From the NCBI RefSeq assembly GCF_041468085.1, contig NZ_CP121017.1:971501-1035500 (forward strand): 64,000 nt of DNA, read 5' to 3'. Each line of letters begins with the position of its first letter. The first letter of the stretch is position 1. Under the pieces are notes generated by a model that worked only from the letters and a program-made list of their open reading frames with translations, did no database searches and was not told where the DNA came from. Source of the stretch: Tistrella mobilis (lineage in GTDB: Bacteria; Pseudomonadota; Alphaproteobacteria; Tistrellales; Tistrellaceae). Both the position numbers and the translations under genes were made by a program. Positions 4,710-38,635 of this stretch are shown one piece after another.

Positions 4710-4739
4710 GGGGGACGCCTGCGGGCGTCCCCCTTTTTT
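4710..4739 (+). terminator. Rho-independent terminator of tpa
   Basis: A perfect 10-bp stem GGGGGACGCC/GGCGTCCCCC with a four-base loop is followed by six T residues, 24 bases after the tpa stop codon. Confidence 0.93.
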
Positions 4740-9791: not shown

Positions 9792-9909
9792 GCCCGCTCC
9801 GGTCCGCTCCGGTCTGCGCCGGGGCCGTTTCGCCCGCGGCGGGAAGTGGAAGAGCGGACGATACACGCGACGGACGGGGAAGCGGAAGAGGCTGCGGCCC
9901 GGATCGGGA

Positions 9910-10503
9910 TCAGCCGGGGCGTCGCATCAGCCGCCAGACCAGGAAGGCGGTGACCTCGACCGCCAGCACGGCGGCGGCGAACCACATCATCACCTGGGTG
10001 GTGTCCATCCGGCTTTCGGCCAGCACGTCGCCCAGCACAACCAGCGGCGTGTTCCAGAGCGCGGTGCCGACGATGGTGGCTGCCAGATAGGGACGGAAGG
10101 GCAGGCGCATCACGCCCGCCGGCAGGCCGATGAAGATCCGGACCGTGGGGATGGTCTGCGCGATCAGCGTCACCAGGAAGGGGCGGCTGCCATAGGCGTC
10201 GCGCATCCGGTCATAGAGCTGGGGGGTGAGCAGGATGTAGCGGCCATGGCGGGCAACGAAGCGCTCGGTGCGCTCCGACAGCACCCGGCCGACCCAGTAC
10301 CAGCCAATGGCCCCCACCACCGATCCGATCGTGGCCGCCACGACGGTCGCGACGATGCCGCCTTCCATCTGATCACCCAGCGCCCCGAAGGCGGCGAGCA
10401 TCACATAGGAGGGGATGATCGGCACGTATTTCTCGGCGAAGGCCAGAAAGGCCACCCCCGCGAGACCGGCGGACATCAGCAGATCGATGATGGATTGCGG
10501 CAT
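9910..10503 (-). CDS. DedA/VTT-family inner-membrane protein
   Basis: The 197-residue protein has the DedA layout: a re-entrant N-terminal segment with a conserved acidic residue (FAEKYVPIIPSYVML), a glycine-rich helix (TIGSVVGAIGWYWVGR), the basic F-x-x-R-x-x-P-x-x-R region as RPFLVTLIAQTIPTVRIFIGLPAGVMRLPF, and a C-terminal helix. DedA proteins are proposed lipid scramblases or proton-dependent transporters that influence membrane homeostasis and polymyxin resistance. The substrate here cannot be read from sequence. It lies 118 bases downstream of sbcD on the same strand order and is probably independent. Confidence 0.85.
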   Translation of the reverse strand: MPQSIIDLLMSAGLAGVAFLAFAEKYVPIIPSYVMLAAFGALGDQMEGGIVATVVAATIGSVVGAIGWYWVGRVLSERTERFVARHGRYILLTPQLYDRMRDAYGSRPFLVTLIAQTIPTVRIFIGLPAGVMRLPFRPYLAATIVGTALWNTPLVVLGDVLAESRMDTTQVMMWFAAAVLAVEVTAFLVWRLMRRPG

Positions 10504-10604
10504 GGATTGAGGGCGCGCGGCCCCTCCGGACGGTGGTTCACCGCCTGTTCATATCATGCCCTGCGGTCGGAGGGCAGTGACCAGATCGCGGCGGTGACGG
10601 GGGA

Positions 10605-11501
10605 TCAAAGCTGCACGGGCAGGCCCTTCAGGAACATGGCGTCCTTCTTGGGCGCCGTCCCGAACAGCCGTGTGTATTCCCGGCTGAACTGCGAAGGACT
10701 TTCATAGCCGACGCGGAAGGCGGCGCTGGTGACGCTGGCAGATTCCGCCACCATCAGGCGCCGCGCTTCCAGAAGCCGCAGCTGCTTGTGATATTGCAGC
10801 GGTGTCATCGAGGTCAGCGTCTTGAAGTGCTGATGGAAGGACGACACACCCATGCGGGCGGCATGTGCCAGCTCCTCGATGCTGAGTGGCTGCCCGACAT
10901 TCCCGCGCATCAGATGGATCGCTTCCGCGATGCGCTGGGTGTGGCTGCCGGCGCGCGCGATCTTGCAGATCTCGCCGCCATTCGGGCCCGACAGAAGCCG
11001 GTAATACAATTCCCTGACGGTGGCGGGGTAGAGAACGGGAACCGCATCGGGCGTCTCGAACAGCTGTACCAGCCGGATAAGGCAATCCTGAACCGGGTCC
11101 GACAGTTCCTCGACGAAGACGCCGAGCCGTTCTTCCGCCGGCCGTGGAGGCGAGAGCATCTGATCGAGGACCTCGCGCAGCAGGGCGATGTCGAATTCGA
11201 TGGTCATGCCGAGGAAGGGCTCCGCCTTCGTGGCCTGCGTCACGCTGCCGAACCCCGGCAGGCCGATGCTGATGATCAGTGCGGTTCCGGCCGAATAGTC
11301 GAAGCTCCGATCTTCAAGTTCGATGCGCTTGGCGCCCTGAACGACCACGCAGAGCGACGGCTTGTAAGCCTTGCGGAAGGGCATGCGCTCTTTCGTGCTG
11401 CACATGAGGATGACGTCCTGAACCGCTGTCCGCGAGACCGCGTCGGGGCCGCCGTGGCCGGCCACATAGCGCGCCACCACCTCCCTCAATTCCTGCCGCA
11501 T
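10605..11501 (-). CDS. AraC-family regulator (AraC_N type)
   Basis: The 298-residue protein has an N-terminal AraC_N-type ligand domain (residues about 20-175, including KPSLCVVVQGAKRIEL and a GTALIISIGLPGFGSV strand region) and a C-terminal double helix-turn-helix (about 195-295; IEELAHAARMGVSSFHQHFKTLTSMTPLQY, then ASVTSAAFRVGYESPSQFSREYTRLFG). Relatives often sit beside and activate aldehyde/alcohol oxidoreductase genes. It is transcribed divergently from iorA-like 11741, with about 240 bp of shared control region, so it probably regulates that operon in response to an aldehyde or aromatic substrate. The effector is unknown. Confidence 0.85.
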   Translation of the reverse strand: MRQELREVVARYVAGHGGPDAVSRTAVQDVILMCSTKERMPFRKAYKPSLCVVVQGAKRIELEDRSFDYSAGTALIISIGLPGFGSVTQATKAEPFLGMTIEFDIALLREVLDQMLSPPRPAEERLGVFVEELSDPVQDCLIRLVQLFETPDAVPVLYPATVRELYYRLLSGPNGGEICKIARAGSHTQRIAEAIHLMRGNVGQPLSIEELAHAARMGVSSFHQHFKTLTSMTPLQYHKQLRLLEARRLMVAESASVTSAAFRVGYESPSQFSREYTRLFGTAPKKDAMFLKGLPVQL

Positions 11502-11740
11502 CGTGATGCTCCCGCCGGTGTCGATACGGGAAAAGCCTAGGCACGAATTCCGCGTCGCACCAGCACCTTGGAGAATCAGGCAAGTTTTTTGCGCGTTCCG
11601 GCATGAAGGGCCGGGCCTTCGTTTTCATCTTCCAGAGATGCAACAGGCTGGAGGTCGATGATGACGGGCAGAGATGTCGGATGTGCACCGCAGATCAGGG
11701 TCAGCCTGGCCCTGGCGGGAACCGGTCGTGGAGGCGCCGG

Positions 11741-12205
11741 ATGGTCGCGCTGAAGGTGAACGGCCGCCGGGTCGAGGTCGCGGCACCGGATCACAAGCCG
11801 CTGCTCTGGGTGCTGCGCGAGGATCTGGGGGTGCTTGGCCCCAAATACGGCTGCGGCGTGGGGGAGTGTGGCGCCTGTCGGGTCCTGGTCGATGGCGAGG
11901 CGATACGGTCCTGCATGCATCCGATCGGCAGCCTCGGCGGCGCGTCGGTGGTGACCGTCGAAGGGCTCGCGGATCCGGACGGCAGGCTGTCGGCGGTCCA
12001 GCAGGCATGGATCGACGAGCAGGTCCCCCAATGCGGGTACTGCCAGCCGGGCTTCATCATCGCCGCAACGGAACTTCTGGCCCGGACCCCAGCGCCCACC
12101 GATGCCGAGATCGACGAGGCGATCACCAACATCTGTCGCTGTGGCACCTATCCGCGCATCCGCCGCGCGATCCACCGTGCCGCCTCCATGATGACCCGGA
12201 CGTAA
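11741..12205 (+). CDS. Molybdenum hydroxylase 2Fe-2S subunit (IorA/CoxS-like)
   Basis: The 154-residue protein is the small iron-sulfur subunit of a xanthine-oxidase-family hydroxylase. The plant-type 2Fe-2S cluster is bound by Cys38, Cys43, Cys46 and Cys58 (YGCGVGECGAC...SC). The second cluster is bound by Cys98, Cys101, Cys132 and Cys134 (CGYCQPG and ICRCGTY). The ATG at 11741 has a GTGGAGG ribosome-binding sequence; upstream in-frame starts give a non-conserved extension. It is followed after 9 bases by the large subunit. It lacks its own export signal, as usual, and would ride with the Tat-signal-bearing large subunit. Confidence 0.9.
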   Translation: MVALKVNGRRVEVAAPDHKPLLWVLREDLGVLGPKYGCGVGECGACRVLVDGEAIRSCMHPIGSLGGASVVTVEGLADPDGRLSAVQQAWIDEQVPQCGYCQPGFIIAATELLARTPAPTDAEIDEAITNICRCGTYPRIRRAIHRAASMMTRT

Positions 12206-12214
12206 GGTGTTCCC

Positions 12215-14533
12215 ATGCCCCGTCTTCTGTCCCGACGCACTTTCCTGTGGACCGGCGCCGCGCTGGGCGGCACGGCGCTGGTCGCCGCGGTCGGTGGTGC
12301 CGGCTATCTTGCGACCATCGATGTGGACGGGCGCATAAGCTCCGTCGACGGCGACGGTGCCGCACTCAACGCCTTCCTGACCATCCATGGCGACGGCCGC
12401 GTGGTCGTCCAGGTCCCGAAGACCGAGATGGGGCAGGGCATCCATACCGGGCTCGCCATGGTCGTGGCGGAAGAGCTGGACATTCCCTTTGACGATCGCA
12501 TCCGGGTGAAGTTCCCGGTCGAGCCGCTGCCGGCCTATTCCAACTGGTTCAATATTCTGCGCGTGCGTCCGGAAGAGGCGAGCGGGCCGGTGGTCTGGGT
12601 CGGGCGGCGCGTGCTCGGCCTGGCGGGCTTCATCGCGACCGGCGCTTCGGCGTCGACCATGGCGCTGTGGCATCCCATGCGGGTCGCGGGCGCGTCGGCG
12701 CGTCACATGCTGCTCGCGGCGGGCGCGGCGCGGCTCGGCGTGCCCGTCGATCAGCTTTCGACCGGCGACGGCAATGTCCGGCACGACGGGTCCGGCCGCA
12801 GCCTGTCCTATGGCGACCTTGCGCGCGACGCCGCCTTCATGCCGCCGCCCGACGATCCGCCGCTGAAGCCGGCGGCCGAATGGCGGGTGATGGGCAGGTA
12901 CCAGCCCCGGGTGGACGTGCCGGCCAAGGTCAGAGGCGAGCCCGTCTTCGGCATCGATGTCGTCCGTCCTGGGATGCTGCATGCCACGATCCGCCACGCT
13001 CCCGTGTTCGGGGCAGGTGTCGCACGCGTCATCAACGCCGCCGAGGTGCGTCGCGAACCCGGGGTTGTGGATGTCGTGGTCATCGACGGCAAGAGTGTCG
13101 CGGTGGTCGGTGATCAGTGGTGGCAGGCCGAGAGTGCCGCCCGACGCCTGGAGATCGCGTGGACGCCGATCGAGGCGGATCACGTGTCCGACAGCACGCT
13201 GTCCGCAGCGCTCAAGGCCGGGCTGCGCAGCGAGACCCCCTATGAACACGTCGACATGGGAGATGTGGATGCGGCCATCGCAGCCGACCCGGCACGCCTG
13301 GTCGAGGCCACCTGTGACGTTCCTTTCGTGACCCATGCCTGCATGGAGCCGATGAATGCCACGGTGATCATCCGGCCGGACGGGTCGGCGGAAGCCTGGG
13401 TGCCGTCGCAATCGCCCATGAGCGTGCGGAACGGGATACGCAGCGGCGCCGGCCGCGCCGGCGTCAGCGTCGCCGACATCACCTGCAACATCACGATGAA
13501 CGGCGGCGGATTCGGGCGCCGCAGCGACCAGGATGTGGTCGCGCAGGCCGCGTATCTTGCGGCACGCCATCGCGGACGGCCGGTCAAACTGGTCTGGCCG
13601 CGTGAAGAGGATATCGGTCGCGGCCTGTTCCGCAGCCATGCGGCGGCACGGCTGCGCGCGGTGCTGGGCCCGGACGGCCTGCCCGTCGCCTGGGATGCGC
13701 TGGTCGCGACGCAGTCGGTCATACATTCGGTCGCCAGCCGGAACCTGCCGTTCACGCCGGGTCCCGACGGCGACCGCCTGGCGATCGAAGGGCTGGAGAC
13801 GCCCTATTACGCCATCCCCAACCGGCGTGTTCGCAGCCAAAACGTCCCCAGCCATGTGCCGATCGGTCTGTGGCGATCGAACGGGTTTTCCTTCAACACC
13901 TTCTTCACCGAGAGCTTCATCGACGACTGCGCGCTGACGGCGGGGATCGATCCGCTGGACTATCGCCGGGCACTTCTGCGCGACAGTCCGCGTCACCTGC
14001 GCGTCCTGGAGCACGTGGCCGGGATGGCCGGATGGGGCAGCTCCATGGCAACGGGCCGCGGGCGCGGCATCGCCATCGAGGAATGCTATCGAAGCGTGGT
14101 GGCGCAGGTGGCTGAGGTCACGGTCGCCGGGGATGGTGAGATCACCGTGGACCGGGTGTTCTGCGCGATCGATGCGGGGCTGGTGATCAATCCCGACGGG
14201 GTGAAGGCCCAGATGGAGGGCGGCATCGTCTTCGGTGTCACCTCCGCGCTGAACAGCAGGATCACGCTGGAGAACGGTGCGGTGGTGCAGTCGAACTTCC
14301 ACGACTTTCCCATGCAGCGCCTGCACAACGCCCCCGACATCACGGTCGACATCATGGGCAGCGACCTGCCACCGGGAGGTGCGGGGGAACCCGGCGTCGT
14401 TCCCGTGGCGGCGGCGATTGCAAATGCGGTTCATGCCGCGACCGGCCGGCGTCTGCGCTCCCTGCCGCTGGCCACCACCGAGACCGTGGGTGACGGGCGC
14501 ACACGGACCGTCCTGCGCCCGGCAGCGACCTGA
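12215..14533 (+). CDS. Molybdopterin-binding large subunit (isoquinoline 1-oxidoreductase IorB-like)
   Basis: The 772-residue subunit begins with a Tat signal (SRRTFLW at residues 6-12 followed by a hydrophobic core), so the assembled hydroxylase should act in the periplasm. Tandem aldehyde-oxidase/xanthine-dehydrogenase cofactor domains follow, with the IorB-type GGGFGRRSDQD loop near residue 430 and the catalytic Glu725 in GGAGEPG. Family members hydroxylate N-heterocycles or oxidise aldehydes with water as oxygen source. There is no FAD subunit, as expected for the Ior type, and no cytochrome c subunit nearby, so the electron acceptor is unknown. The exact substrate cannot be told from sequence. 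Confidence 0.87.
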   Translation: MPRLLSRRTFLWTGAALGGTALVAAVGGAGYLATIDVDGRISSVDGDGAALNAFLTIHGDGRVVVQVPKTEMGQGIHTGLAMVVAEELDIPFDDRIRVKFPVEPLPAYSNWFNILRVRPEEASGPVVWVGRRVLGLAGFIATGASASTMALWHPMRVAGASARHMLLAAGAARLGVPVDQLSTGDGNVRHDGSGRSLSYGDLARDAAFMPPPDDPPLKPAAEWRVMGRYQPRVDVPAKVRGEPVFGIDVVRPGMLHATIRHAPVFGAGVARVINAAEVRREPGVVDVVVIDGKSVAVVGDQWWQAESAARRLEIAWTPIEADHVSDSTLSAALKAGLRSETPYEHVDMGDVDAAIAADPARLVEATCDVPFVTHACMEPMNATVIIRPDGSAEAWVPSQSPMSVRNGIRSGAGRAGVSVADITCNITMNGGGFGRRSDQDVVAQAAYLAARHRGRPVKLVWPREEDIGRGLFRSHAAARLRAVLGPDGLPVAWDALVATQSVIHSVASRNLPFTPGPDGDRLAIEGLETPYYAIPNRRVRSQNVPSHVPIGLWRSNGFSFNTFFTESFIDDCALTAGIDPLDYRRALLRDSPRHLRVLEHVAGMAGWGSSMATGRGRGIAIEECYRSVVAQVAEVTVAGDGEITVDRVFCAIDAGLVINPDGVKAQMEGGIVFGVTSALNSRITLENGAVVQSNFHDFPMQRLHNAPDITVDIMGSDLPPGGAGEPGVVPVAAAIANAVHAATGRRLRSLPLATTETVGDGRTRTVLRPAAT

Positions 14534-28277: not shown

Positions 28278-28600
28278 TCAGGCGCAGGCGGCGGCGCGGT
28301 CGCGGCTTTCGGTCAGCGCCCGGGCGCCGGCAAGGCAGGCGGCGAGGCCGAGTGCCGCCACCAGCGCGAAGATCATGCGCCAGCCCGCGGCATCGATGAT
28401 CGCGCCCGAGGCGATCGGCCCGAAGGCGAGGCCGACGCCGAAGGCGGTGCCGACCAGGCTGAAGGCCCTGAGCCGCGCAGGCCCGTCGACTGTCTGGGCC
28501 AGGGCCGTCATGCCGCCCGCCAAGGCGGCGGCTGCCGCCAGCCCCTGGGCGGCGCGGGCGAGATCGAGCATGAGGATGTCGGGGGCGAGCCCGGCCGCGG
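28278..28600 (-). pseudogene. Remnant of an MFS (DHA2-like) transporter
   Basis: About 105 codons encode only a central piece of an MFS drug exporter: a LARAAQGLAAAAALAGGMTAL helix, then SLVGTAFGVGLAFGPIASGAIIDAAGWRMIFALVA (helices about 4-6), and the frame stops soon after the sixth helix. Both the N-terminal helices and the second half of the protein are missing. The homology ends within about 20 bases of the stop codon of the ATP-grasp gene, so the remnant marks the left joint of the lasso cluster. Confidence 0.65.
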
Positions 28601-28618
28601 GGTAAGCGGGGCGTTCCC

Positions 28619-29674
28619 TCAAGCCGGAAGCCATGCCCTGAGCAGCGGTGGCAGGGAGGCTGTCTCCAGGCCGAACACGCCCGGCAGCGTGGCAAGGATC
28701 CAGTTGCCGCCGGTATTGCCCTCCAGCATCACCATGCCGCAGGTGGAGGGGATCAGATCCCAGTGCACCAGGGCCAGTCCCGGCAGGGCGGTCATGGCGC
28801 CGAGAGCCATGGCAACGGCATCTTCGAAGCCCGGAAGAGTGCGCCCCGCGAGACGGGCGTTGTTCCAGGGCAGGCGGGGTATCGGACGGCGCGGGGCGCC
28901 CAGCAGGATGCCGGCGGCAAGGCGGCCACTTGCGGGATCGACCGGTACCTGGATGCCGCCGTGCAGGAAGTCGCGCGGGTGGCGGTCCGGAACCGGGACC
29001 GTCAGCAGGGCTGACTGCAGGAAGGGCGCCTCGTCGGGGCGTCGGGCGGTGGCCAGCCGGAGGACGGGTGCACGGTCCGCCGTGGCCAGATCGGCGAGGG
29101 CGGTACAGGGTGCAAGATGTTCCTGGACCAGCAGGTCATCGGCCCCCAGCAGTCGGTTCAGCCGGGCAGCCAGGGCCGTGGCATCGACCGGCTGAGCGTC
29201 GATCTGCCAGCCGCCGCCGTCATGACGAAGCCCGAAGGCACCGGCACCGCCATGGCCATGGCGCGGTTTGACGAACAGCCCCGCGCCGGCCGCTGCGACC
29301 GGAACGAGCCGGTCGGGATCGACACTCTGTCCCTGCGAGAGCACGACCGGGGTCGCCGGGAAAACGGCACCCGCTGCGGTCAGCCGTGCCGCTGCGGCCA
29401 TCTTGTCGGCAAGCAGGACATGAGCGGCCGGATCGCCCAGCCGGGCGAGCAGCAGAGAGGCGGCCCTCTGCGGCAATGGGTTGTAACCGCCATGCAGTCC
29501 CCGCCACAGATCGACATCCAACGGTGTGCCGCCGGTCGCGATGCAGTCGCGGTAGAGGCGCCATGCGGCCCCGGCGCCGAGGCCTCTGCGTCGGGCATAC
29601 CGCCAGCAACTCGCGCTCGCAGCCAGCGGGTGAGCTGTGCGGTCGCCAAGTCGGAGAACAAGACGCAAAAACAC
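28619..29674 (-). CDS. ATP-grasp protein, sugar-transfer-associated type
   Basis: The ~351-residue product resembles the ATPgrasp_ST group: LADKMAAAARLTAAGAVFPATPVVL (about 88-112), GLFVKPRHGHGGAGAFGL (P-loop-like ATP-grasp strand, about 132-150), LLVQEHLAPC, and a C-terminal HWDLIPST...MLEGNTGGNW with the usual Glu/Asn metal ligands. Such enzymes ligate a carboxylate to an amine or thiol using ATP. The GTG at 29674 is uncertain: the frame is open upstream without an ATG and the conserved start may lie elsewhere. It lies downstream of the lasso precursor on the same strand, separated by a hairpin, so it is probably part of the lasso cluster, perhaps as a ligase acting on the peptide. Its role is unproven. 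Confidence 0.65.
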   Translation of the reverse strand: MFLRLVLRLGDRTAHPLAASASCWRYARRRGLGAGAAWRLYRDCIATGGTPLDVDLWRGLHGGYNPLPQRAASLLLARLGDPAAHVLLADKMAAAARLTAAGAVFPATPVVLSQGQSVDPDRLVPVAAAGAGLFVKPRHGHGGAGAFGLRHDGGGWQIDAQPVDATALAARLNRLLGADDLLVQEHLAPCTALADLATADRAPVLRLATARRPDEAPFLQSALLTVPVPDRHPRDFLHGGIQVPVDPASGRLAAGILLGAPRRPIPRLPWNNARLAGRTLPGFEDAVAMALGAMTALPGLALVHWDLIPSTCGMVMLEGNTGGNWILATLPGVFGLETASLPPLLRAWLPA

Positions 29675-29675
29675 C

Positions 29676-29702
29676 GGCCGCTTCTGCCGCCAGGAAGCGG
29701 CC
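29676..29702 (-). terminator. Hairpin between lasso precursor and ATP-grasp gene
   Basis: On the minus strand GGCCGCTTC and GAAGCGGCC form a perfect 9-bp stem with a nine-base loop, followed by GGTGTTTTT. It lies 119 bases behind the precursor stop. It may be a partial terminator or mRNA-stabilising element that keeps precursor expression above that of the downstream gene. Confidence 0.55.
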
Positions 29703-29820
29703 GACCAGTCCCTCAGATCTGCAAGATCAGGATCGGAAGAGGCTTGCCAGCCTTCTCCGTCCCAGGGCAGACCCCGCCACCAGTTGCAGGGTGTCCGGGT
29801 ACGTCCGGTGCCTGAGAGCC

Positions 29821-29988
29821 TCAGGAGCCGGGCTTGAGGAAGCTGGGGCCTTCGATGCCGGAGGTTCCGGTACCGGTGGTGAAGGCGGATACGTCGGCAT
29901 CGTTCAGCACCGGCTTGTTCCAGGGCTTGCGTGCCCCATGGCTGTCCGTTGCATCGGTGGAATACATAGGCAGAGGGGGCTGGACCAT
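29821..29988 (-). CDS. Lasso-peptide precursor
   Basis: A 55-residue precursor (ATG 29988, weak AGGA 12 bases upstream) or 48 residues from ATG 29967. The leader carries WNKPVL, matching the lasso Y/W-x-x-P-x-L element recognised by the B1 protein. The leader ends in F-T-T with Thr at position -2. The core (29824-29874) is GTGTSGIEGPSFLKPGS: Gly1 and Glu8 can form the eight-residue macrolactam ring and residues 9-17 the threaded tail. The last residue is Ser, the residue that lasso kinases phosphorylate. The alternative cut before Gly3 would give only a six-residue ring and is unlikely. Divergent from the kinase-sulfotransferase-B1-cyclase genes. Confidence 0.85.
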   Translation of the reverse strand: MVQPPLPMYSTDATDSHGARKPWNKPVLNDADVSAFTTGTGTSGIEGPSFLKPGS

Positions 29989-30025
29989 GCTATGTGCACA
30001 TCCTGAAGAGTGAAGTAATATGGCA

Positions 30026-30054
30026 AATGTAGCATTGAGAGATGGTCCGCCCAA
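30026..30054 (-). promoter_or_regulatory. Candidate promoter of the lasso precursor
   Basis: On the minus strand TTGGGC (30054-30049), 17 bases, and TACATT (30031-30026) form a plausible sigma70-type pair, about 40 bases upstream of the precursor ATG at 29988. A possible plus-strand -10 (TAATAT, 30016-30021) for the divergent kinase operon overlaps the same AT-rich stretch. Confidence 0.4.
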
Positions 30055-30098
30055 TGGAAAATCTTCAGAGGGGCCGGCGTGAGGATAACATTCTCCAT

Positions 30099-31040
30099 AT
30101 GTATGACGCGACATTTATTTATAGAACGTCAGGGTTGCTGGTGCGATCGGGCGTTTCCTTCGCCGGAGCCGTCTCGCAGAGGGATACCGGGCGCAATCGG
30201 CCCGATGTGATCGTCATGCGGGGGGATTGTCCCGCCAGCCTGGACGCGCCTCGTCATCGCGGCCCCTGCTGGGCTGCGGACGACCGGCACCTGCTGCTCG
30301 ACCTGCCGGGGATTGGTCGGCTGCTGGCGGCCGACGGCGAGCGGGTGACCCTCGATCCGGCACCGGGTGTCCCGGTTGACGACATGGCGGCGTTCGCGGC
30401 CGGGATCGGTCTGTCGGCCATTCTTCATCAGCGCGGCACGGGGCTGGTGCTGCAGGCGTCGGCCGTGCTCCTGGATGGTCGGGCCCATCTGTTCTGCGGC
30501 CCGCCCGGGTCGGGGAAGTCGACGCTGGCGGCGGCGTTGTGCCAGGCCGGCGGGGGGCTTGTCGCCGACGACCGCTGCGTGATAGAGCCGGCGGAGCCGG
30601 TTCTGGTCCATCCCGAGGGGCTGGGCCTTCAGTTGCGGTCGGATGCCTTGTCGTGGCTGGGTCTGGAAGACCGGGCCTGCACACCGGTACGTGGAAGGGG
30701 GGCGAAGGTGGTACTTGCCCCGCCGGAGCACACGCCGTCGACAGTACCCCGGCCTGCCGCGCCTGTGCCCGTGGCGTCCATCCAGGTCATGGCTGACATT
30801 CCCGGCGATGGGATGGCCATGATGACGCGCCTGCCTGCGCTGCCGGCCGCACAGCTGCTGCTGAACCAGATCCATGCCCGGCGCCTTGCCCTGGCCTGGC
30901 CGGCCCGGGTGCAGCCGGCGGGCAGGATTGCGGCAGTGCTCAATCACGTGCCGGTCTACCGCCTGGACCGCCCGCGCGATCTGCGCCGCCTGGGCGAGAC
31001 CGTCGATCTGGTTCTGGCCATGTCGGCCGACATGGCGTGA
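30099..31040 (+). CDS. HPr-kinase-like lasso-peptide kinase
   Basis: The 313-residue protein resembles HPr(Ser) kinase C-terminal domains. It has a Walker A CGPPGSGKST with Lys140 and a following ADDRC acidic motif (about residues 157-161). The N-terminal strands (YRTSGLLVRSG) and the ILHQRGTGLVLQASAVLLDGRAHLF core are those seen in kinases of lasso clusters such as PadeK of paeninodin, which phosphorylate the C-terminal Ser of the precursor. ATG 30099 is preferred over 30042 because conserved sequence begins there and GAGG lies upstream. The matching C-terminal Ser of the local precursor supports this role. It leads a four-gene operon with 10-50-base gaps. Confidence 0.82.
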   Translation: MYDATFIYRTSGLLVRSGVSFAGAVSQRDTGRNRPDVIVMRGDCPASLDAPRHRGPCWAADDRHLLLDLPGIGRLLAADGERVTLDPAPGVPVDDMAAFAAGIGLSAILHQRGTGLVLQASAVLLDGRAHLFCGPPGSGKSTLAAALCQAGGGLVADDRCVIEPAEPVLVHPEGLGLQLRSDALSWLGLEDRACTPVRGRGAKVVLAPPEHTPSTVPRPAAPVPVASIQVMADIPGDGMAMMTRLPALPAAQLLLNQIHARRLALAWPARVQPAGRIAAVLNHVPVYRLDRPRDLRRLGETVDLVLAMSADMA

Positions 31041-31050
31041 GGTGCAAGAG

Positions 31051-31902
31051 ATGGCATCCTTCCCCGCCGGCGCCGTCTGGCTCGCGTCTTATCCCAAATC
31101 AGGCAATACCTGGATGCGGGTGTTGCTTGCCAATCTCATGGCGGGCGGTGCGGCCCCCGTTGATATCAATGCCCTGCCCGACGACTACGCCGTGACGTCG
31201 CGACGGCAGTTCGCCGAGCATATGCTGATCGATGCCGACCTCCTGACCCCGGATGAGCTGGAGCGGCTCCGTCCCGCCTTCAATGCGGCGGTGTTCCAGC
31301 CTCTCGAAGGGCCGGCCTTCTGCAAGACCCATGACCCGTTTTTCGGCAGGGACGGAGCCGGCAGGGCGCGTGTGCCGGTATTGGGAACGGCGGCACGGGC
31401 GGCGGTCTATCTGATCCGGGATCCGCGGGATGTGGCGATTTCCTTTGCGCATCACATGGGTGCCGATATCGATGAGGCCATCCGGCGGATGGGTGATGGA
31501 TCGGCCGTCATGGGCAGTGCCGCGCAGCTTTCCCATCACCTGGGCGACTGGGCTGGTCATGTCGAAAGCTGGACCCGTCAGGATCTGGTGCCGGTGGCGG
31601 TGATCCGTTACGAGGACCTTCGCCGGGACACGCATGGTTGTTTCGCAGCGATGCTGAAGCGGCTGGGCGTCGCGGCGACGGCGGCGGAGATCGATCGGGC
31701 CGTTGCTCATTCCAGCCTGAAGGCGCTGCAAGGCCAGGAACGTCTGGCCGGCTTCCGCGAGCGGCTGCCGGGCCAGGACCGGTTCTTCCGGTCGGGACGC
31801 GTAGAAGGATGGCGCGACGTGCTGAGCACGGCGCAGATCCGGGCGATCGAGGATCAATGCGCCGCGACCATGATACGCTGGGGATACGCCCTGGCGGGTT
31901 GA
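31051..31902 (+). CDS. Sulfotransferase in the lasso cluster
   Basis: The 283-residue protein is a PAPS-dependent sulfotransferase. The 5'-phosphosulfate-binding loop is WLASYPKSGNTWMR (residues about 10-23) and the 3'-phosphate region is AVYLIRDPRDVAISFAHHM (about 127-145). A late FFRSGRVEGWRD matches the conserved R-K-G-x-x-G-D-W region, with Arg-Val in place of Lys-Gly. It starts ten bases after the kinase stop. The core peptide lacks Tyr, so if the peptide is the acceptor, a Ser or Thr hydroxyl is the only option. A small-molecule acceptor or a repurposed kinase-partner role cannot be excluded. Confidence 0.82.
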   Translation: MASFPAGAVWLASYPKSGNTWMRVLLANLMAGGAAPVDINALPDDYAVTSRRQFAEHMLIDADLLTPDELERLRPAFNAAVFQPLEGPAFCKTHDPFFGRDGAGRARVPVLGTAARAAVYLIRDPRDVAISFAHHMGADIDEAIRRMGDGSAVMGSAAQLSHHLGDWAGHVESWTRQDLVPVAVIRYEDLRRDTHGCFAAMLKRLGVAATAAEIDRAVAHSSLKALQGQERLAGFRERLPGQDRFFRSGRVEGWRDVLSTAQIRAIEDQCAATMIRWGYALAG

Positions 31903-31951
31903 TCCCGGCGGGTGATCCATGTGGCCTGTTCCCTTTCTCCGGGATGATCCG

Positions 31952-32218
31952 ATGACCGAGATCCTGCGCCGCGCAGACGACGTTTCCGCCGTAACAGGCG
32001 ACGGCGAGACGCTGCTGCTGAACCTCTCCACAGGCCTCTGGCACGGTCTGGACCCGATCGCAGCACGGATCTGGGAGATGCTCGCCGAGCCGATGGATGC
32101 AGACGGCCTTGTCGCCCGCCTGGTGGCCGAATACGAGGTGACGCCCGAGACCTGCCGGGCGGAGATCATTCCGCTGCTCGACCGTATGCGGGCACGCGGC
32201 CTGCTGGCCGGAGGCTGA
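31952..32218 (+). CDS. PqqD-like RRE protein (lasso B1)
   Basis: The 88-residue protein has the PqqD fold sequence pattern (ETLLLNLSTGLWHGLDPIAARIWEML, then LVARLVAEYEVTPETCRAEIIPLLDRMRARGLL). In lasso pathways this stand-alone RiPP recognition element binds the leader, and the WNKPVL motif of the local precursor fits its usual ligand. I chose ATG 31952; ATG 31919 would add eleven residues not typical of the family. It is followed after four bases by the cyclase gene. Confidence 0.87.
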   Translation: MTEILRRADDVSAVTGDGETLLLNLSTGLWHGLDPIAARIWEMLAEPMDADGLVARLVAEYEVTPETCRAEIIPLLDRMRARGLLAGG

Positions 32219-32222
32219 CCCG

Positions 32223-34151
32223 ATGCGGCTGATCTGCGGCATGCTCCGGCTGGATGGCGAGCCGGCTTCAGACCGGCATCTGGATGCCATGGCCGCGGGG
32301 CTGACCGCGCCGGGCACAAACCCCGGCCTGTCGCGCCATATCGACGGCCCGCTGGGGATGGCGGTGCTGGATTTCACCGGCGGCACCGACGGTCTGGTCC
32401 GGCGGGAGGGGCTGGTTCTGGCCCTGGATACAAGGCTCGATCGGGGCCTCACGGACGAGGGCGCCGCCGTCATCGGCGCGATCCGCCAGCACGGGGCCGA
32501 TTTTCCCGACCATCTGCATGGTGATTTTGCCGTGGCGGCCTGGGATGCGGCGCGCGGAGAGCTGATCCTGGGCCGGGACTATATCGGTGTCCGGCCACTG
32601 GTCTGGACCCTGCAGCCCGGCCGTCGTCTTGCCTTTGCCAGCCTGCCGGCCGGGCTGATCGCGGCGTCACCCGAACGGGCCGCGCCCGATCCGGTCGCAC
32701 TGGGCCTGCTGTTGGTTCACGGCTATTTCGTCGGCGCCGATACCGGCCATGCGGGCATCGCCATGCTTCAGGCGGGGCACAGCCTTACCGTGCGGACAGG
32801 AGAGGGCCGGCCCCCCCGCCTGCACCGCGCCTATCGGCCCGATCCGCGTCTGGTCGGGCGCTGGCGTGGCGACCGGCACGAGGCGGCGGCCAGATTGCGT
32901 GATCTGGTGACTGAGGCCGTGACCGACCGCTTGCCCCCGCAGGGCGTCGTCGCCAGCCATCTGACCGGTGGGCTCGACAGTTCGGCCGTGACCGTGCTGG
33001 CGGCGCGCGGCATGCGGGAACGCGGCGGCCGGATACTGGCACTCAGCAAGCTGATGCCGACTGCCATGGGGCCGGCGGACCTGGATGAGCGGCCGCTGAT
33101 CGCTGCCGTGCTGGCGCAGGAGCCGGATATCGTTCATGCCGGGGCGCCGGACCTGCTGCCCCTGCCATCCCAGCCCCAGCATCCCGACTGGCCGGGTCTG
33201 CCACTGGACGGACCGGAGGATGACATGGCTGCCGCTGCGGCCGCCTTTGGCGCCGATCGCATCCTGAGCGGTGTGGGGGGCGATGAAGGCGCCAGCTATC
33301 ACGGTGCCAATCTTTATGCCCGGCTGCTGCGCGACGGCTGGCTGAGGACGCTGGCGCGTGAATTGCCGGCGCGGGCAAGACGGGACGGGGTCAGCCTGAA
33401 GCAGGCGGTGCGCGGCCGGTTGATCGGGCCCCTGCTGCCGGACGGTCTTGCCCGCAGGCTGGGGGTATCGGTCGGTCGGGGCCAGCTTTATGGTTCGTCG
33501 AAGGGGGTGGCCCGCTTCCTCGCGCCCGGGCTCCGCGACGCGGTCGAGGCCCGACGGATGCGGAAAGTCCTGGTCAGCAACGACCCCGAAGAGCGGGTGG
33601 CTGCCTTTGCCGACCACCACATCCCCTCGCGCTGCAGCTTCTATGCGATCACCGCGGCACGGCGCGGGCTGGCAGCCTCGTTCCCGCTGCTCGATCGCCG
33701 GGTGGTTGACTTCATCCTGTCGCTGCCGGCAGGCCTGTTCCTTGACGATGGCTTCGCCCGCCAGCCCTTCCGGGCGGCGATGGACGGCATCCTGCCCGAC
33801 ACGGTGCGGCTGAAAGCGCACAAGGTCGGGCTCTATGACGATCGCTTCATTGGTTATGCCGACCATCGTGCCGCCCTGCTGGCAGAGGTGGACCGGCTGG
33901 CGGCACGGAGATCGGAGATCGTCTGCCGGCTCTTCGATCTGACCGAGATCCGCGCCGCGCTGGCCCTGTTACCCGATGCGGCCAACGCGCTGGATTTCGT
34001 GCGGACACGACCGGGCGACCTTCATGGCGGTGTGCCGCCCTGGCTGCCGCTGATCGCGGTGCACTGCCTGATAGTTGCGCGGCATCTGGACGATCATGCG
34101 GCAGTCACGGGCGGGGGGAGTGGTGTCACCCCCGCCCGCAATCCATCCTGA
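32223..34151 (+). CDS. Lasso cyclase, asparagine-synthetase-like (lasso C)
   Basis: The 642-residue protein combines an N-terminal class-II glutaminase-like domain (residues 1-200) with an asparagine-synthetase domain. The PP-loop HLTGGLDSSAVT (Asp252, Ser253) binds ATP. The glutaminase nucleophile is not at position 2 as in AsnB; the nearest Cys is residue 5 (MRLICGML), consistent with a lasso cyclase that needs no glutamine. It would adenylate the Glu8 side chain and close the macrolactam to Gly1. It ends by overlapping the convergent methyltransferase gene by 26 bp. Confidence 0.88.
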   Translation: MRLICGMLRLDGEPASDRHLDAMAAGLTAPGTNPGLSRHIDGPLGMAVLDFTGGTDGLVRREGLVLALDTRLDRGLTDEGAAVIGAIRQHGADFPDHLHGDFAVAAWDAARGELILGRDYIGVRPLVWTLQPGRRLAFASLPAGLIAASPERAAPDPVALGLLLVHGYFVGADTGHAGIAMLQAGHSLTVRTGEGRPPRLHRAYRPDPRLVGRWRGDRHEAAARLRDLVTEAVTDRLPPQGVVASHLTGGLDSSAVTVLAARGMRERGGRILALSKLMPTAMGPADLDERPLIAAVLAQEPDIVHAGAPDLLPLPSQPQHPDWPGLPLDGPEDDMAAAAAAFGADRILSGVGGDEGASYHGANLYARLLRDGWLRTLARELPARARRDGVSLKQAVRGRLIGPLLPDGLARRLGVSVGRGQLYGSSKGVARFLAPGLRDAVEARRMRKVLVSNDPEERVAAFADHHIPSRCSFYAITAARRGLAASFPLLDRRVVDFILSLPAGLFLDDGFARQPFRAAMDGILPDTVRLKAHKVGLYDDRFIGYADHRAALLAEVDRLAARRSEIVCRLFDLTEIRAALALLPDAANALDFVRTRPGDLHGGVPPWLPLIAVHCLIVARHLDDHAAVTGGGSGVTPARNPS

Positions 34152-35136
34152 ACGGGCCGAAGGCGGTCTCGACCAGCCGGCTGTCGATGCGGGTGAAGCC
34201 GGCTTCGGCCATGGCGGCGGCGATGGTGCCGTCGTCGAAGGAGCGGTCCTGACCGCGCAGCGCCGGGACAAGGCGGCCGGTGACATGGGTTTCAGGGGCG
34301 GTGCGTTCGGCCGTCAGCGCCTCGTGCAGGGTGACGAAGACCCCGCCGGGGGCGAGGGCCCGGCGGATGCCGGCCAGGACGCGGACCAGATCGCGGGCGT
34401 AATAGAGCGTCATCGAGGTCCAGATGATGTCGTAGCCGGTGCCGAAGCCGGCCGCGTTCATGTCACCTGCAATGACCGTGGCGGGCCGGCCGTCCAGCCG
34501 GGCGCGGATGCGGTCTGCCATCGGCGGCAGGTCGAAGACGGTGATGTCGAGCTGCGGGTGCCGGTCGGCGAGGCGGCAGGCCAGTATCTCGGATCCGGCC
34601 CCCAGATCGAGCAGGCGGCGCGCCGAGGGCCATTCGGGCAGGCGGGTGAGCAGGTCGAGGGCGGTGTCGGCACCCATCGCCCGATGAAAGGCCCTGAGGC
34701 TGTTGGCCGAGCCGTCCCAGAAGGCGGGCGACGCCATGTCGGGGGCGGGGGCCGGCCCGGGATCGGCGAGCAGGCCCGCGACGTCGCCATGACGGAGCCG
34801 CGGCAGGGTGAGGAGCAGGTCGCGCATCGACCGCGCGCCATCGGTCCTGAGCAGCGGGGCGGCCTCTGCCGTCAGGCCGTAGCGGCCGCGGGTCTTGTCG
34901 AGCAGGCCCATGGCGGCAAGGCCGTCGAGCACGCGGCCGAGCCGGGTGGCATCGAGGCCCAGGGATCCGGCGAGATCTGCGGCCGTGGCCGGCGGGTCGA
35001 GCCGGTCGAACAGGCCGAGATCGAGCGCACAGGCGAGCAGCTGCCAGCGCAGGGGCGCCTGGATCAGATCGAACAGCCGGCCGGCGAGGCCGTCGCGGCC
35101 GGGGATATCGATGATGGGGAGCGTGCGATCGCGCAT
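34126..35136 (-). CDS. SAM-dependent O-methyltransferase-like protein
   Basis: The 336-residue protein belongs to the family-2 O-methyltransferase fold. It has an N-terminal winged-helix dimerisation domain (ALDLGLFDRLDPPATAADLAGSLGLDATRLGRVLDGLAAMGLL), the SAM motif LLDLGAGSEILACRLA near residue 165, an acidic VFDLPPM after the next strand, and a C-terminal LAPGGVFVTLHEALT. Its ATG at 35136 shares one base with the stop of the TonB receptor gene (GTG 35139 is the alternative), so the two are translationally coupled. Such pairs of TonB receptor and methyltransferase occur in siderophore or metallophore loci; the substrate is unknown. Confidence 0.82.
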   Translation of the reverse strand: MRDRTLPIIDIPGRDGLAGRLFDLIQAPLRWQLLACALDLGLFDRLDPPATAADLAGSLGLDATRLGRVLDGLAAMGLLDKTRGRYGLTAEAAPLLRTDGARSMRDLLLTLPRLRHGDVAGLLADPGPAPAPDMASPAFWDGSANSLRAFHRAMGADTALDLLTRLPEWPSARRLLDLGAGSEILACRLADRHPQLDITVFDLPPMADRIRARLDGRPATVIAGDMNAAGFGTGYDIIWTSMTLYYARDLVRVLAGIRRALAPGGVFVTLHEALTAERTAPETHVTGRLVPALRGQDRSFDDGTIAAAMAEAGFTRIDSRLVETAFGPFRMDCGRG

Positions 35137-37256
35137 CACCAGCTTGCCTTCACCTGGAGGCTGACCTCGCGGCCGGCGCCGTCTTCGACCAGCTGGCCGA
35201 GCGGCACGCCGACGGCGCGGGCATAAACGTTGCGGTCGAAGATGTTGCTGGCCTGAAGCGAGACCTCGATGGTGCCGAAGCGGTAGCCGAGGGCGGCATC
35301 GGCCAGGGCGAAGGCGTCCTGCGACAGCGTGTTGGCACCGTCGAAGTAATAGGGGCCGGAGCCGTTGGCTGCGACCAGGCCGAACCAGCCGTCGCCCCCC
35401 GTGCTGCCGCCCTGGTCGTAGCGCAGCCCCGCCGACCAGGTGGCCTCTGCCGCCATCGGCAGGCGGTTGCCGGAATAGTCGACCGGCACCAGCGTGCCGC
35501 CGCGGTTGACGGTGGTGCGGTAGGAACTGGCCTCCGCCTTCTGCAGACCGCCGGTGGCGAACCAGCCCCAGACCTCGTCGATCCGGCCGTCGAGGGCGAG
35601 TTCGGCGCCGTAGATGCGGGCCTCTGCGGCATTGGTGATGGTGGTGATGCCGCCCGGTTCGAGATCGAGAATCTGGCGGTCGGTCGAGGTGGTGTGGAAG
35701 AGGGCAAGGTCGGCGACGACCCGGCCGCCGAACAGCGCGGTCTTCACACCGGCCTCTGCCGTCCAGCTGTGTTCGGCGCCATAGGTCAGGCTGTCACGGC
35801 TGGTGGCATTGCCGTAATTGTAACCGCCGGGCAGATAGCCGCGGGCGTAAGATGCGTGGAGCATCGTCTCGGGCGCCACGTCCCAGGCGAGCGAGATCTT
35901 GGGCAGAAGCGTGGTGTCGGTGATGTCTGCGTCGAAGCGGCTGCTGCCCGCCGCGTTGGTCAGCCGCATCCGGCCGCTCTGGTCGATCCGCTCCACCCTG
36001 GTCCCCAGGGTGACGCGCAGATCCGGGGTGAGGCCGTATTCGGCCTGGCCGAAGCCGGCGATGCCGGTCTGGTCGATCGATGTTTCGCGCGTCACCCGCG
36101 GCGTGCCGATGCGGAAATCGAGATCGGTGCGGCTGACATAGCCGTAGAGCCCCGCGAGCCAGCGCAGCCGGGCATCATCATCCGGCGAGGCGATGCGCAG
36201 TTCCTGCGAGACGGTATCGTCCTTGTGGGAGGAAAGCGTGGGCAGGGTGGGCAGCGGCGTGCCGTCCAGATCCATCCGGAAATCCCGGGTGTAATGCGTC
36301 CAGCCGGTGATGGCGGTGAGATCGACCGGCCCGGCACGATGGTCGATGCGCAGCGACTGGATGGCCGTCACCGTATCGTCCCACGAGGCGGCGTCGTAAT
36401 TGGTGACATTGCGGGGCGTGGCATAGGGGCCGGTCAGGAAGCGCAGCCGCTGCTTGCCGAGATCGGCCCGCTCCACCACGCTTTTGAGCGAGATGTCGGT
36501 GTCGTCGTCGGGCAGCAGGGTCAGCCCGCCGGAAAAGGTCAGCCGATCGGTGGACGCGCCGTCATCGGCGCCGTCGGTGAGGTTGAGACCGGGGCCGCGG
36601 GCCTGTTCGGCCCGCAGCGCCACGGCGCCCGCGGCCTTGTCGGGCGCGATCGGCCCCGAGACCCGGCCGCTGACGGTCCAGCTCGGGCTCCAGCCGTCGG
36701 CGCCGTCTTCGAACCCCAGGATGGCGCGGGCTTCGGCGCCCGCCTGCCAGTCGGGATCGGCCGTGTCGGTACGGATCAGCCCGGCTTCGGTGTTGCGGCC
36801 GTACAGGCTGCCCTGGGGGCCTTTCAGGATCTCCATGGTGCCGGGATCGGGCAGGCGCGGCGCCTGTACCGCGCCATGGGGCAGGGCGACGTCGTTGACC
36901 GTGAAGCCGAGCGGATCCTGCAGGGCGGTGTTGGCGACGGTCATGCCGCGCATCACCACCCGGGTCTGCACCGAGGACTGTTCGATCAGCACATTGGGCG
37001 AGTGTCGGGCGATGCCGGCGAGGCCACCGGCGAGCGGACCGGCCTGATCCTCGGGCGTGAGCAGGTCGACCGTGCCGGGGGTTCGGCGGACATCCTCGGT
37101 CCACTGGCGGGCCTCGACCAGGACGGGCGCGAGGCGGACGACGGTTTCGTCCTCGCCCGCCACGGCCGGACCCGTGACGAGCGTCGTGCCGCCGGCCAGC
37201 AGCACGGGGACGGCGGAGGCGAGCAGGCGGGTGCGGACCCTGCGATGCGTGGTCAT
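35136..37256 (-). CDS. TonB-dependent outer-membrane receptor
   Basis: The 706-residue receptor has a signal peptide (MTTHRRVRTRLLASAVPVLLAGGTT, cleaved near AVAGED), a TonB-box-like ETVVRLAPVLVEA, a plug domain (about residues 50-165, with VVMRGMTVANTALQDPLGFTVNDVAL and MEILKGPQGSLYGRNTEAG) and a beta-barrel ending in QVKASW. It is closest in pattern to siderophore receptors of the FepA/pyochelin-receptor kind. Upstream on the same strand are an MFS exporter and an AraC regulator, downstream a coupled methyltransferase. Its nearness to the lasso cluster raises the possibility that it imports a lasso peptide, but no lasso isopeptidase accompanies it. Confidence 0.88.
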   Translation of the reverse strand: MTTHRRVRTRLLASAVPVLLAGGTTLVTGPAVAGEDETVVRLAPVLVEARQWTEDVRRTPGTVDLLTPEDQAGPLAGGLAGIARHSPNVLIEQSSVQTRVVMRGMTVANTALQDPLGFTVNDVALPHGAVQAPRLPDPGTMEILKGPQGSLYGRNTEAGLIRTDTADPDWQAGAEARAILGFEDGADGWSPSWTVSGRVSGPIAPDKAAGAVALRAEQARGPGLNLTDGADDGASTDRLTFSGGLTLLPDDDTDISLKSVVERADLGKQRLRFLTGPYATPRNVTNYDAASWDDTVTAIQSLRIDHRAGPVDLTAITGWTHYTRDFRMDLDGTPLPTLPTLSSHKDDTVSQELRIASPDDDARLRWLAGLYGYVSRTDLDFRIGTPRVTRETSIDQTGIAGFGQAEYGLTPDLRVTLGTRVERIDQSGRMRLTNAAGSSRFDADITDTTLLPKISLAWDVAPETMLHASYARGYLPGGYNYGNATSRDSLTYGAEHSWTAEAGVKTALFGGRVVADLALFHTTSTDRQILDLEPGGITTITNAAEARIYGAELALDGRIDEVWGWFATGGLQKAEASSYRTTVNRGGTLVPVDYSGNRLPMAAEATWSAGLRYDQGGSTGGDGWFGLVAANGSGPYYFDGANTLSQDAFALADAALGYRFGTIEVSLQASNIFDRNVYARAVGVPLGQLVEDGAGREVSLQVKASW

Positions 37257-37341
37257 GGGCGTCTCCGGAAGGCGCTGGAATGAGATGGGCGAGGCTAGCG
37301 CCGGCACGCGCCGCCGGCGCCCTTATGGCGAACGCCGACCG

Positions 37342-38529
37342 TCATCCGGCGAAAGCCTCGGACCGGCGCCGGAAGGCGATCCCGGCGATGACGGCGAGCA
37401 GGACCGCCCCCGCCCACCAGGGCGCGGTGGGGGAGAACTGGTGCAGCATGGCGCCGAGCATCGGCCCTGCCGCCATGGCGAGGCCCTGGGCCATGCCGTT
37501 GATGCCGGCGGCGCGGGCCTGGGCGCCCGCGGGCGTGGCCAGGCTGAGCCCGGCGAGATTGCCGGGCAGCAGCAGGCCGAAGCCGGCACCGAGCAGGACC
37601 ATCGCGATCTGGAGCCAGAGGATGGCAGGTGCGGCCGCCGCCATGGCCATGGCGAGGAGGGCGAGCACGGCCCCCCTGCGCACCAGACGGGCCGGGGCCC
37701 AGCCCAGCCGGCCGATCACCAGACCCTGCGTCGCGACCATGGCGAGGGTGGTCAGGGCGAGGAGCGCACCGCCGCGTTCGATGGAGGCGGCGGGGGCGAG
37801 GCCGAACTGATCCTGGAGGCGGAGCGCCGTTACCTGCTGAAGCTGGGCATAGGCGGCAAGGCCGGCGAAGGTTATGGCAAGGAAGGGCAGAAGCCGGCCG
37901 AGCGGCGGGCGCGGCGTGGCGGTGGTGGCCGTGGATACCGGCCGTGCCGTCGCCCGCAGCACCAGCGCCACCAGAAGCGTGCCGGCGGCGATGGCGGCCG
38001 AAAGGACCAGCAGCGCCACGGCCGGCGATGCGCCGCCCAGCCGCCAGGCGGTCATGCCGCCCAGAATCGAGCCCAGGCCGAAGGCGGCCCCCATCATCCC
38101 CATGCCGCCGGCCCGGCGGTCGCGGGCGGTGACATCGGCCAGAAAGCCCTGGGCGGCGGGCATGATCCCGGCCGATATGGCGGCCTGAACCAGCCGTGCC
38201 GCGAGCAGCAGGCCATAGGCGCGGCCGGCATCGAGCCGGCCGCCATCGAGGGCATCGAGGGTCCAGGCGAGGAGGGCGGGGAAGAGGGCGGCGGCGGCAA
38301 GCCCCGCCACCAGCACCGGCCGGCGGCCGATCCGGTCGGCGACATGGCCCCAGACGGGCCCTGCCACCACCATCAGCAGGGCCGAGAGGCCGAGCAGCAG
38401 CCCGGTTTCAAGATCGCCGAAGCCGCGGGCACGGCCGAGCGGCGGCAGGGTGATCAGCAGGAAGGCATGGCCGGCCCCGTTTGCGGTAAGGGCGGCAAGC
38501 AGGGCGGCGACGGCTGGACGGGTCGACAT
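37342..38529 (-). CDS. MFS transporter
   Basis: The 395-residue protein has about 12 membrane helices. The MFS motif A is GHVADRIGRRPVLVAG (about residues 58-73), and the second-half counterpart is weak. It resembles drug/siderophore efflux or siderophore-import MFS proteins linked to TonB receptor genes. ATG 38529 begins the conserved MSTRPAVAALLAALTANGAGHAFLLI; the 14-residue upstream extension is unlikely. It stands between an AraC regulator and the TonB receptor on the same strand, likely in one operon. Confidence 0.85.
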   Translation of the reverse strand: MSTRPAVAALLAALTANGAGHAFLLITLPPLGRARGFGDLETGLLLGLSALLMVVAGPVWGHVADRIGRRPVLVAGLAAAALFPALLAWTLDALDGGRLDAGRAYGLLLAARLVQAAISAGIMPAAQGFLADVTARDRRAGGMGMMGAAFGLGSILGGMTAWRLGGASPAVALLVLSAAIAAGTLLVALVLRATARPVSTATTATPRPPLGRLLPFLAITFAGLAAYAQLQQVTALRLQDQFGLAPAASIERGGALLALTTLAMVATQGLVIGRLGWAPARLVRRGAVLALLAMAMAAAAPAILWLQIAMVLLGAGFGLLLPGNLAGLSLATPAGAQARAAGINGMAQGLAMAAGPMLGAMLHQFSPTAPWWAGAVLLAVIAGIAFRRRSEAFAG

Positions 38530-38635
38530 GGGCGCACGGGGCTCCGGATGGGCGGTCGGAGGGGAGACCATGCCCTGTCCGGAAGCTGCGCGCCGTCATC
38601 TGGCGAAAGGGTGGCGGGGACGGGGGAGACGCCTT

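Follow-up and report, generated by a model that had tools for sequence, protein, structure and literature searches.

A probable lasso peptide cluster in Tistrella mobilis with its leader peptidase apparently in trans

How could a lasso peptide mature from a gene cluster that carries no leader peptidase of its own? The question is raised by a cluster of Tistrella mobilis located in what we call the window, that is, the whole stretch of 64,000 nucleotides analyzed here (NCBI RefSeq assembly GCF_041468085.1, contig NZ_CP121017.1, positions 971,501 to 1,035,500 of the forward strand), in a 6.3-Mb Tistrella genome. Here, the gene of an ATP-grasp ligase lies 3′ of a precursor gene on the minus strand, and the genes of a kinase, a sulfotransferase, a PqqD-like protein (B1), and a lasso-cyclase-like protein (C) run divergently on the plus strand (table 1). 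An earlier sequence-only reading had taken this for a lasso locus and had named the divergent kinase-like, sulfotransferase, PqqD-like, and asparagine-synthetase-like genes, all of which are seen, with Pfam support for the last three. Its assignments of precursor and B1 stand, and its C resembles lasso cyclases, whereas the lack of a standard leader peptidase (B2) and the ATP-grasp gene had escaped it. Judging from sequence comparisons, the cluster is real, of lasso type, and probably functional.

Precursor and predicted product

The conservation of the precursor across relatives argues that it is real. It reads MVQPPLPMYSTDATDSHGARKPWNKPVLNDADVSAFTT followed by the core GTGTSGIEGPSFLKPGS, with the leader/core junction at KPWNKPVLNDADVSAFTT/GTGTSGIEGPSFLKPGS, and spans 55 residues, or 48 if counted from the second Met; the longer form is favored because the second Met is an Ile in the locus of a sister Tistrella species (L012) and because window and sister both have an AGGA, spotted by eye, ahead of the first ATG. 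The leader places a Trp at position -16 and a Thr at position -2, and a Glu stands at core position 8. The minus-strand precursor of 48 to 55 residues with a WNKPVL motif and Thr at -2 that the sequence-only reading had described is thus borne out by the open reading frame (ORF) and by the matching leaders and cores of relatives. The homolog search to which it had left the conservation of the frame found this frame kept, with 85% precursor identity between the window and the sister, and the leader motif, the Thr at -2, and the frame also recur in Ancylobacter, Falsiroseomonas, and a marine alphaproteobacterial metagenome-assembled genome (MAG). The corresponding cores are GTGTSGVEGIPFLKPGS in the sister species, GGGTSGVEGTSFLKPGS in Ancylobacter rudongensis (L022), GGGTSGVEGTSFLKAGS in Falsiroseomonas algicola (L024), and GNGTSGMEGTSFLKPGS in the marine MAG (L034), which together follow the pattern GxGTSG[IVM]EGxxFLK[PA]GS, with Glu8 and the C-terminal Ser invariant. 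No precursor was found on the 4.5-kb contig of a Sphingomonas MAG with a further close cyclase (L023), nor in locus L036, and searches of Pfam and PHROGs with the precursor gave no match.

Beyond these close relatives, scanning genome contigs with four aligned cyclases yielded 32 loci from 69 matching stretches, in which 22 small ORFs fit a rule of leader motif, Thr at -2, and nearby acid, the terminus being ignored. Twenty of them end in Ser, against a background of 34 in 446 called genes. In an overlapping set of 22 cores, 21 hold an acid at positions 7–9 after the cut site, which is partly a selection effect. This second set was hand-picked: 20 of its cores came from the terminus-blind rule and two (L016 and L033) from a filter that uses the terminal Ser, while two further matches to the blind rule, which lie in L028 and do not end in Ser, were set aside as fortuitous. 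In the Novispirillum locus L026, two similar precursors, KTSSTMESTPGDVKIGS and KTSSTMESVPGFVKNGS (at 4711 and 9616, minus strand), flank one gene set.

The PqqD-like protein has as its nearest solved chains the lasso PqqD chaperone 9x90 (E 1.1e-8) and TbiB1 5v1u (E 1.3e-8), although it scores 51.6 bits against the cut-off of 80 of the NCBIfam lasso PqqD model, and the best NCBIfam model of the cyclase is the lasso cyclase one, but at 148.4 bits for a cut-off of 525. Given that PqqD is closest to solved lasso recognition elements (RREs), and given the similarity of the cyclase to those of lasso pathways, a predicted Gly1–Glu8 lasso is the best reading of the cluster product. The eight-residue ring with a nine-residue tail proposed from the letters alone is supported by the Thr at -2, by Glu8, and by the conserved core, and its unmodified mass, formerly put at about 1572.78 (about 1573.79 as [M+H]+), agrees with our recomputed 1572.7784 (1573.7857). 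The PqqD-like protein also carries a Trp at a position where 31 of 31 other aligned rows carry Tyr; the leader motif, too, has a Trp.

A candidate leader peptidase elsewhere in the genome

No B2 was found in the cluster, and PF13471 gives a single match in the whole genome, on another contig. This orphan B2 passes NF033537 (lasso_biosyn_B2; 72.3 bits for a cut-off of 33), has the same Cys and His columns as B2s that lie within clusters, and shows a ratio of nonsynonymous to synonymous change (dN/dS) of 0.12 against the sister species and 0.09 against T. mobilis KA081020-065. Its neighbors are the same in these three genomes and are annotated in KA081020-065 as 2-isopropylmalate synthase and sensor kinase; a search by sequence for a solved relative found none.

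The same arrangement recurs among relatives. In a set of 23 distinct loci that combine the genes of a kinase, a sulfotransferase, PqqD, and the cyclase, and whose content was read with small custom hidden Markov models (HMMs) after exclusion of duplicates (L032, L035, L040) and short pieces (L017–L021), 13 carry a B2 in the fetched stretch and 10 do not, one of the latter (L023) lying on a 4.5-kb contig. Whole-genome searches, which covered nine of the ten B2-less cases (all but that of L044), retrieved a B2 elsewhere in eight, each with at least one B2 that has no other lasso-HMM match alongside, the flanks being read over about 7–12 kb per side (in the window's genome, one flank stops at the contig end after 3 kb). 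Three genomes (G062, G063, and G065) hold an additional B2 adjoining other lasso genes. By comparison, 6 of 53 control relatives without this cyclase at E ≤ 1e-30 have a B2, which lies beside cyclase- or PqqD-like genes in five (weakly in G016), the sole orphan being that of KA081020-065; one control, G014, carries a more distant kinase–sulfotransferase–B2–PqqD–cyclase cluster. Orphan B2s are hence found in 8/9 genomes with B2-less clusters versus 1/53 controls (Fisher p 2.4e-8, for two differently drawn samples and with kinship uncorrected). As a side note, the B2 adjoining the Niveispirillum cluster L031 (G063:C25:12146-12520) has an in-frame TAG and may be broken, and the same genome also has an orphan B2 (L063).

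The computation thus yields a conserved precursor, the identities of B1 and C by similarity, no local B2, and a B2-family orphan elsewhere, and we infer that the orphan serves the precursor: a lasso cluster with a leader peptidase working in trans is the account we consider likely. PqqD/B1 would bind the W-x-x-P-x-L leader; the sulfotransferase, the ATP-grasp ligase, or both would tailor the linear precursor, the role of the kinase being doubtful; the orphan B2, from another contig, would cut after Thr-Thr; and C would close the Gly1–Glu8 ring, threaded by the nine-residue tail. A search of the open-access literature, in which mostly listings were seen, did not find a lasso B2 acting in trans in print.

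Several observations weigh against this account. KA081020-065 (G002) keeps an orphan B2 under constraint, at the ratio given above, without the cluster, and for this reason the orphan may do another job, while G006 has the cluster and its precursor and no B2 match genome-wide. In the B2 tree, the Tistrella orphan does not group with the B2s of closely related clusters, and its candidacy as their ortholog was dropped since the tree did not settle it. Moreover, the cyclase, PqqD, and kinase all fall under their NCBIfam cut-offs, and the precursors of the two Tistrella species differ by 4 synonymous and 11 nonsynonymous changes (dN/dS 0.91); constraint on the precursor is seen in its conservation across genera and not in this pairwise comparison.

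The cases of G006 and KA081020-065 would also suit the best surviving rival, in which the cluster is a lasso cluster all the same, but Gly1 is freed by another cellular protease or cyclization can by now do without B2, and the orphan B2 is unrelated. Pseudomycoidin, going by a cited title, is reportedly formed as a lasso without leader and leader peptidase; it presumably stems from another phylum and another gene set than those of Tistrella. The co-occurrence of orphan B2s with B2-less clusters nonetheless speaks against this rival, which we hold to be unlikely.

If B2 does act in trans, searches that require B2 beside C would rate pathways of this kind as incomplete, and B2-less units entering a genome could draw on the B2 already there, easing the spread of lasso pathways. 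The conservation of the core between several genera further suggests a conserved target.

Candidate tailoring genes and signs of function

Candidate enzymes for tailoring are the ATP-grasp ligase and the sulfotransferase, both with conserved positions in their sequences; the order and sites of tailoring proposed above are predictions, as is the threaded fold of the product. A PF14397 ATP-grasp gene is present in 13 of the 23 loci. Its predicted model in the window (predicted local distance difference test, pLDDT, 89.7) would make it an amide-forming fold resembling D-Ala-D-Ala ligases, RimK, and LysX/ArgX, with a best Foldseek E of 8.2e-9 and a best Z of 17.3 (root-mean-square deviation 3.5 over 227 residues), whereas the best solved relative by sequence reaches only E 0.089. 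As regards graspetides, in which ATP-grasp ligases cross-link side chains, the protein matches PF14397, its NCBIfam matches are weak, and its nearest folds are D-Ala-D-Ala ligase, RimK, and LysX. The idea that it substitutes for B2 was discarded, 7 of the 13 loci with this gene also holding a B2 in the fetched stretch. An association of lasso peptides with ATP-grasp enzymes was not found in print by the same literature search, and PMC13352647 mentions neither sulfotransferase nor ATP-grasp.

The kinase gene is harder to credit. It scores 17.1 bits against a Pfam cut-off of 33.3 (PF07475) and 37.9 against the cut-off of 200 of its best NCBIfam model, HprK_rel_A. In both Tistrella species, the His of the HPr-kinase motif, present in 30 of 30 other rows, is replaced by Gln119 (numbered from the ATG at 30099); the Lys and both Asp of the motif are kept, an Arg found in 28 of 30 rows is Ala, and three conserved Leu are changed too. 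According to PMC10368454, Ala at this His harmed BsfK solubility, and the His belongs to the residues that matter for catalysis; PMC9266682 likewise reports mutants of the His-Lys-Asp-Asp motif. Since the Tistrella kinase has Gln for a conserved His reported to be important in other lasso kinases, C-terminal phosphorylation in Tistrella is doubtful. Relaxed selection on the kinase was considered and set aside, its dN/dS of 0.41 being not significantly different (p 0.24). The sulfotransferase, in turn, looks intact: it agrees with its relatives at 51 of the 52 positions where their conservation is 90% or more, and sulfation of the predicted peptide (+79.957) is possible. The +80 Da forms formerly proposed are hence doubtful as phosphate and conceivable as sulfate.

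The substituted kinase, an ATP-grasp frame in which no usual start codon (ATG, GTG, or TTG) lies ahead of the GTG at 29674, and the precursor's dN/dS might also be taken as marks of a decaying cluster, its B2 lost, its kinase crippled, its ATP-grasp start disturbed, and without product. The N-terminal W-x-GLP motif that the ATP-grasp proteins of close relatives share lies upstream of this GTG, and the frame upstream is altered by 10 nt in which window and sister differ. Against decay, the frames of C, sulfotransferase, ATP-grasp, and PqqD are free of stops and frameshifts, PqqD shows no amino-acid change between window and sister, and the unit seems to have been recently exchanged (see below). 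Purifying selection acts on C (dN/dS 0.22), the sulfotransferase (0.21), and the ATP-grasp ligase (0.29), and these low ratios are why we read the three as probably working genes and decay as improbable.

Coming back to a lasso pathway with B2 in trans, its boldest version would be a lasso subfamily made modular genome-wide, with mobile B2-less units of precursor, B1, cyclase, sulfotransferase, and ATP-grasp ligase that depend on a resident B2, in which the Tistrella kinase is dead for catalysis and the product is a sulfated lasso carrying a further amide made by the ATP-grasp ligase, such as one on its C-terminal carboxylate or on Lys14; we regard this full package as speculative and rather unlikely. 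That the cluster is no lasso cluster at all, its AsnB-like enzyme and ATP-grasp ligase building some other macrolactam or amide by the same leader logic, could appeal to the sub-threshold cyclase and to the several wider-family cores that start with K, V, R, or Q, which are unusual as lasso residue 1, but is very improbable in view of the near-constant acid at core positions 7–9 (in part a selection effect), the B2 in the fetched stretch of 13/23 loci, and the closeness of PqqD to solved lasso RREs.

Locus history, neighbors, and known systems

Table 1. Coordinates of the cluster in the window and of tail collar genes in related loci.
Feature	Position	Strand	Evidence
Whole-cluster insertion	28608..34126 (about)	none	BLAST comparison of the window with L012 (sister) and L068 (T. 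mobilis); collinear flanks
ATP-grasp ligase (PF14397)	28619..29791 (29791 approximate)	-	PF14397 E 1.1e-15
Lasso precursor, 55 residues	29821..29988	-	ORF and conservation among relatives
Core GTGTSGIEGPSFLKPGS, predicted Gly1–Glu8 ring	29824..29874	-	Conserved in L012, L022, L024, L034
Leader recognition motif WNKPVL	29905..29922	-	Motif position shared with relatives
Divergent intergenic region	29989..30098	none	From precursor start to likely kinase start ATG 30099
HPr-kinase-like gene, Gln codon 30453-30455 replacing motif His	30099..31040	+	Alignment with relatives
Sulfotransferase	31051..31902	+	PF00685 E 4.7e-24
PqqD-like B1/RRE	31919..32218	+	PF05402 E 4.6e-16; nearest solved chains 9x90, 5v1u
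Lasso-cyclase-like C protein (asparagine-synthetase-like)	32223..34151	+	PF00733 E 5.5e-21; NF033535 E 2.8e-43, below cut-off
Tail collar genes	L014:3013-4834		
Tail collar genes	L016:14401-16114		
Tail collar genes (nine ORFs)	L026:162-9359		
Tail collar genes	L028:14744-16719		
Tail collar genes	L033:14549-16286		
Tail collar genes	L038:14854-16660		
Tail collar genes	L070:14054-15722		

The cluster is a clean insertion of about 5.5 kb: positions 7062-12552 of the sister locus are missing from KA081020-065 (L068), which retains the empty site, and the range first delimited from the letters, 28619-34151, nearly matches it, the final codons of the cyclase falling within sequence common to the empty site. 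Between window and sister, synonymous changes are fewer in the cluster (110 of 1472 sites) than in five flanking genes (333 of 1641; p 1.7e-25), a difference that fits a recent exchange of the unit. The adjoining methyltransferase, TonB receptor, and major facilitator superfamily (MFS) genes (34126-38571) were rejected as cluster members, as they are present in the cluster-free KA081020-065 and had no tblastn match (E ≤ 1e-4) in a set of 36 related loci, all 36 of which were matched by the cyclase as query. On the other side, 28278-28634 is the remnant of an MFS gene whose inner stretch is gone by comparison with the longer sister copy (L012 4518-6062). The intergenic region holds a weak sigma-70-like match at 30035-30062 (one found versus 0.5 expected in shuffles).

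In the wider family, phage tail collar domain proteins, mostly in threes, adjoin the lasso genes in seven distinct loci (PF07484 in 3/3 tested), L043 and L045 have one cut copy each, and a GNAT gene follows the tail collar genes in L014 and L016. There are none in the window or in ten B2 stretches (L054–L063), and our literature search found no paper joining lasso peptide and tail collar. Genes resembling 2OG-Fe(II) oxygenases also adjoin lasso genes (L014:10753-12705, L015:7090-7806).

Among known systems, a list from Pontixanthobacter (PMC10040529, as far as accessible) contains similar families under neighboring cluster numbers, namely a nucleotidyltransferase, sulfotransferases, PqqD, and asparagine-synthase-related proteins, together with a B2, unlike the Tistrella cluster; a lasso cluster is not discussed in that portion. 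The bsf cluster of Bradymonas sediminis, as excerpted from PMC10368454, shares the kinase, B1, a YxxPxL-type leader (with its Tyr at -17), and a ring closed at position 8, but differs by Ile at -2, a phosphorylated Ser3, a C-terminal Asp, and an in-cluster B2; in that excerpt, a search for a sulfotransferase found none. Similar in outline are kinase-containing lasso clusters of Firmicutes and Proteobacteria, those of paeninodin/PadeK and Sphingobium yanoikuyae SyanK, which, in the accessible text of PMC8498205 and PMC9266682, share the HPr-kinase-like gene, a separate PqqD/B1, an AsnB-like C, and a C-terminal Ser, and the same portions mention a sulfotransferase gene for some Firmicutes kinase-containing lasso clusters. 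By contrast with these, the Tistrella cluster is without an in-cluster B2, carries an ATP-grasp gene, and has Gln for the His of the kinase motif. On this basis, its B2 apparently in trans, its ATP-grasp partner, and its altered kinase would make it distinctive among known lasso clusters.

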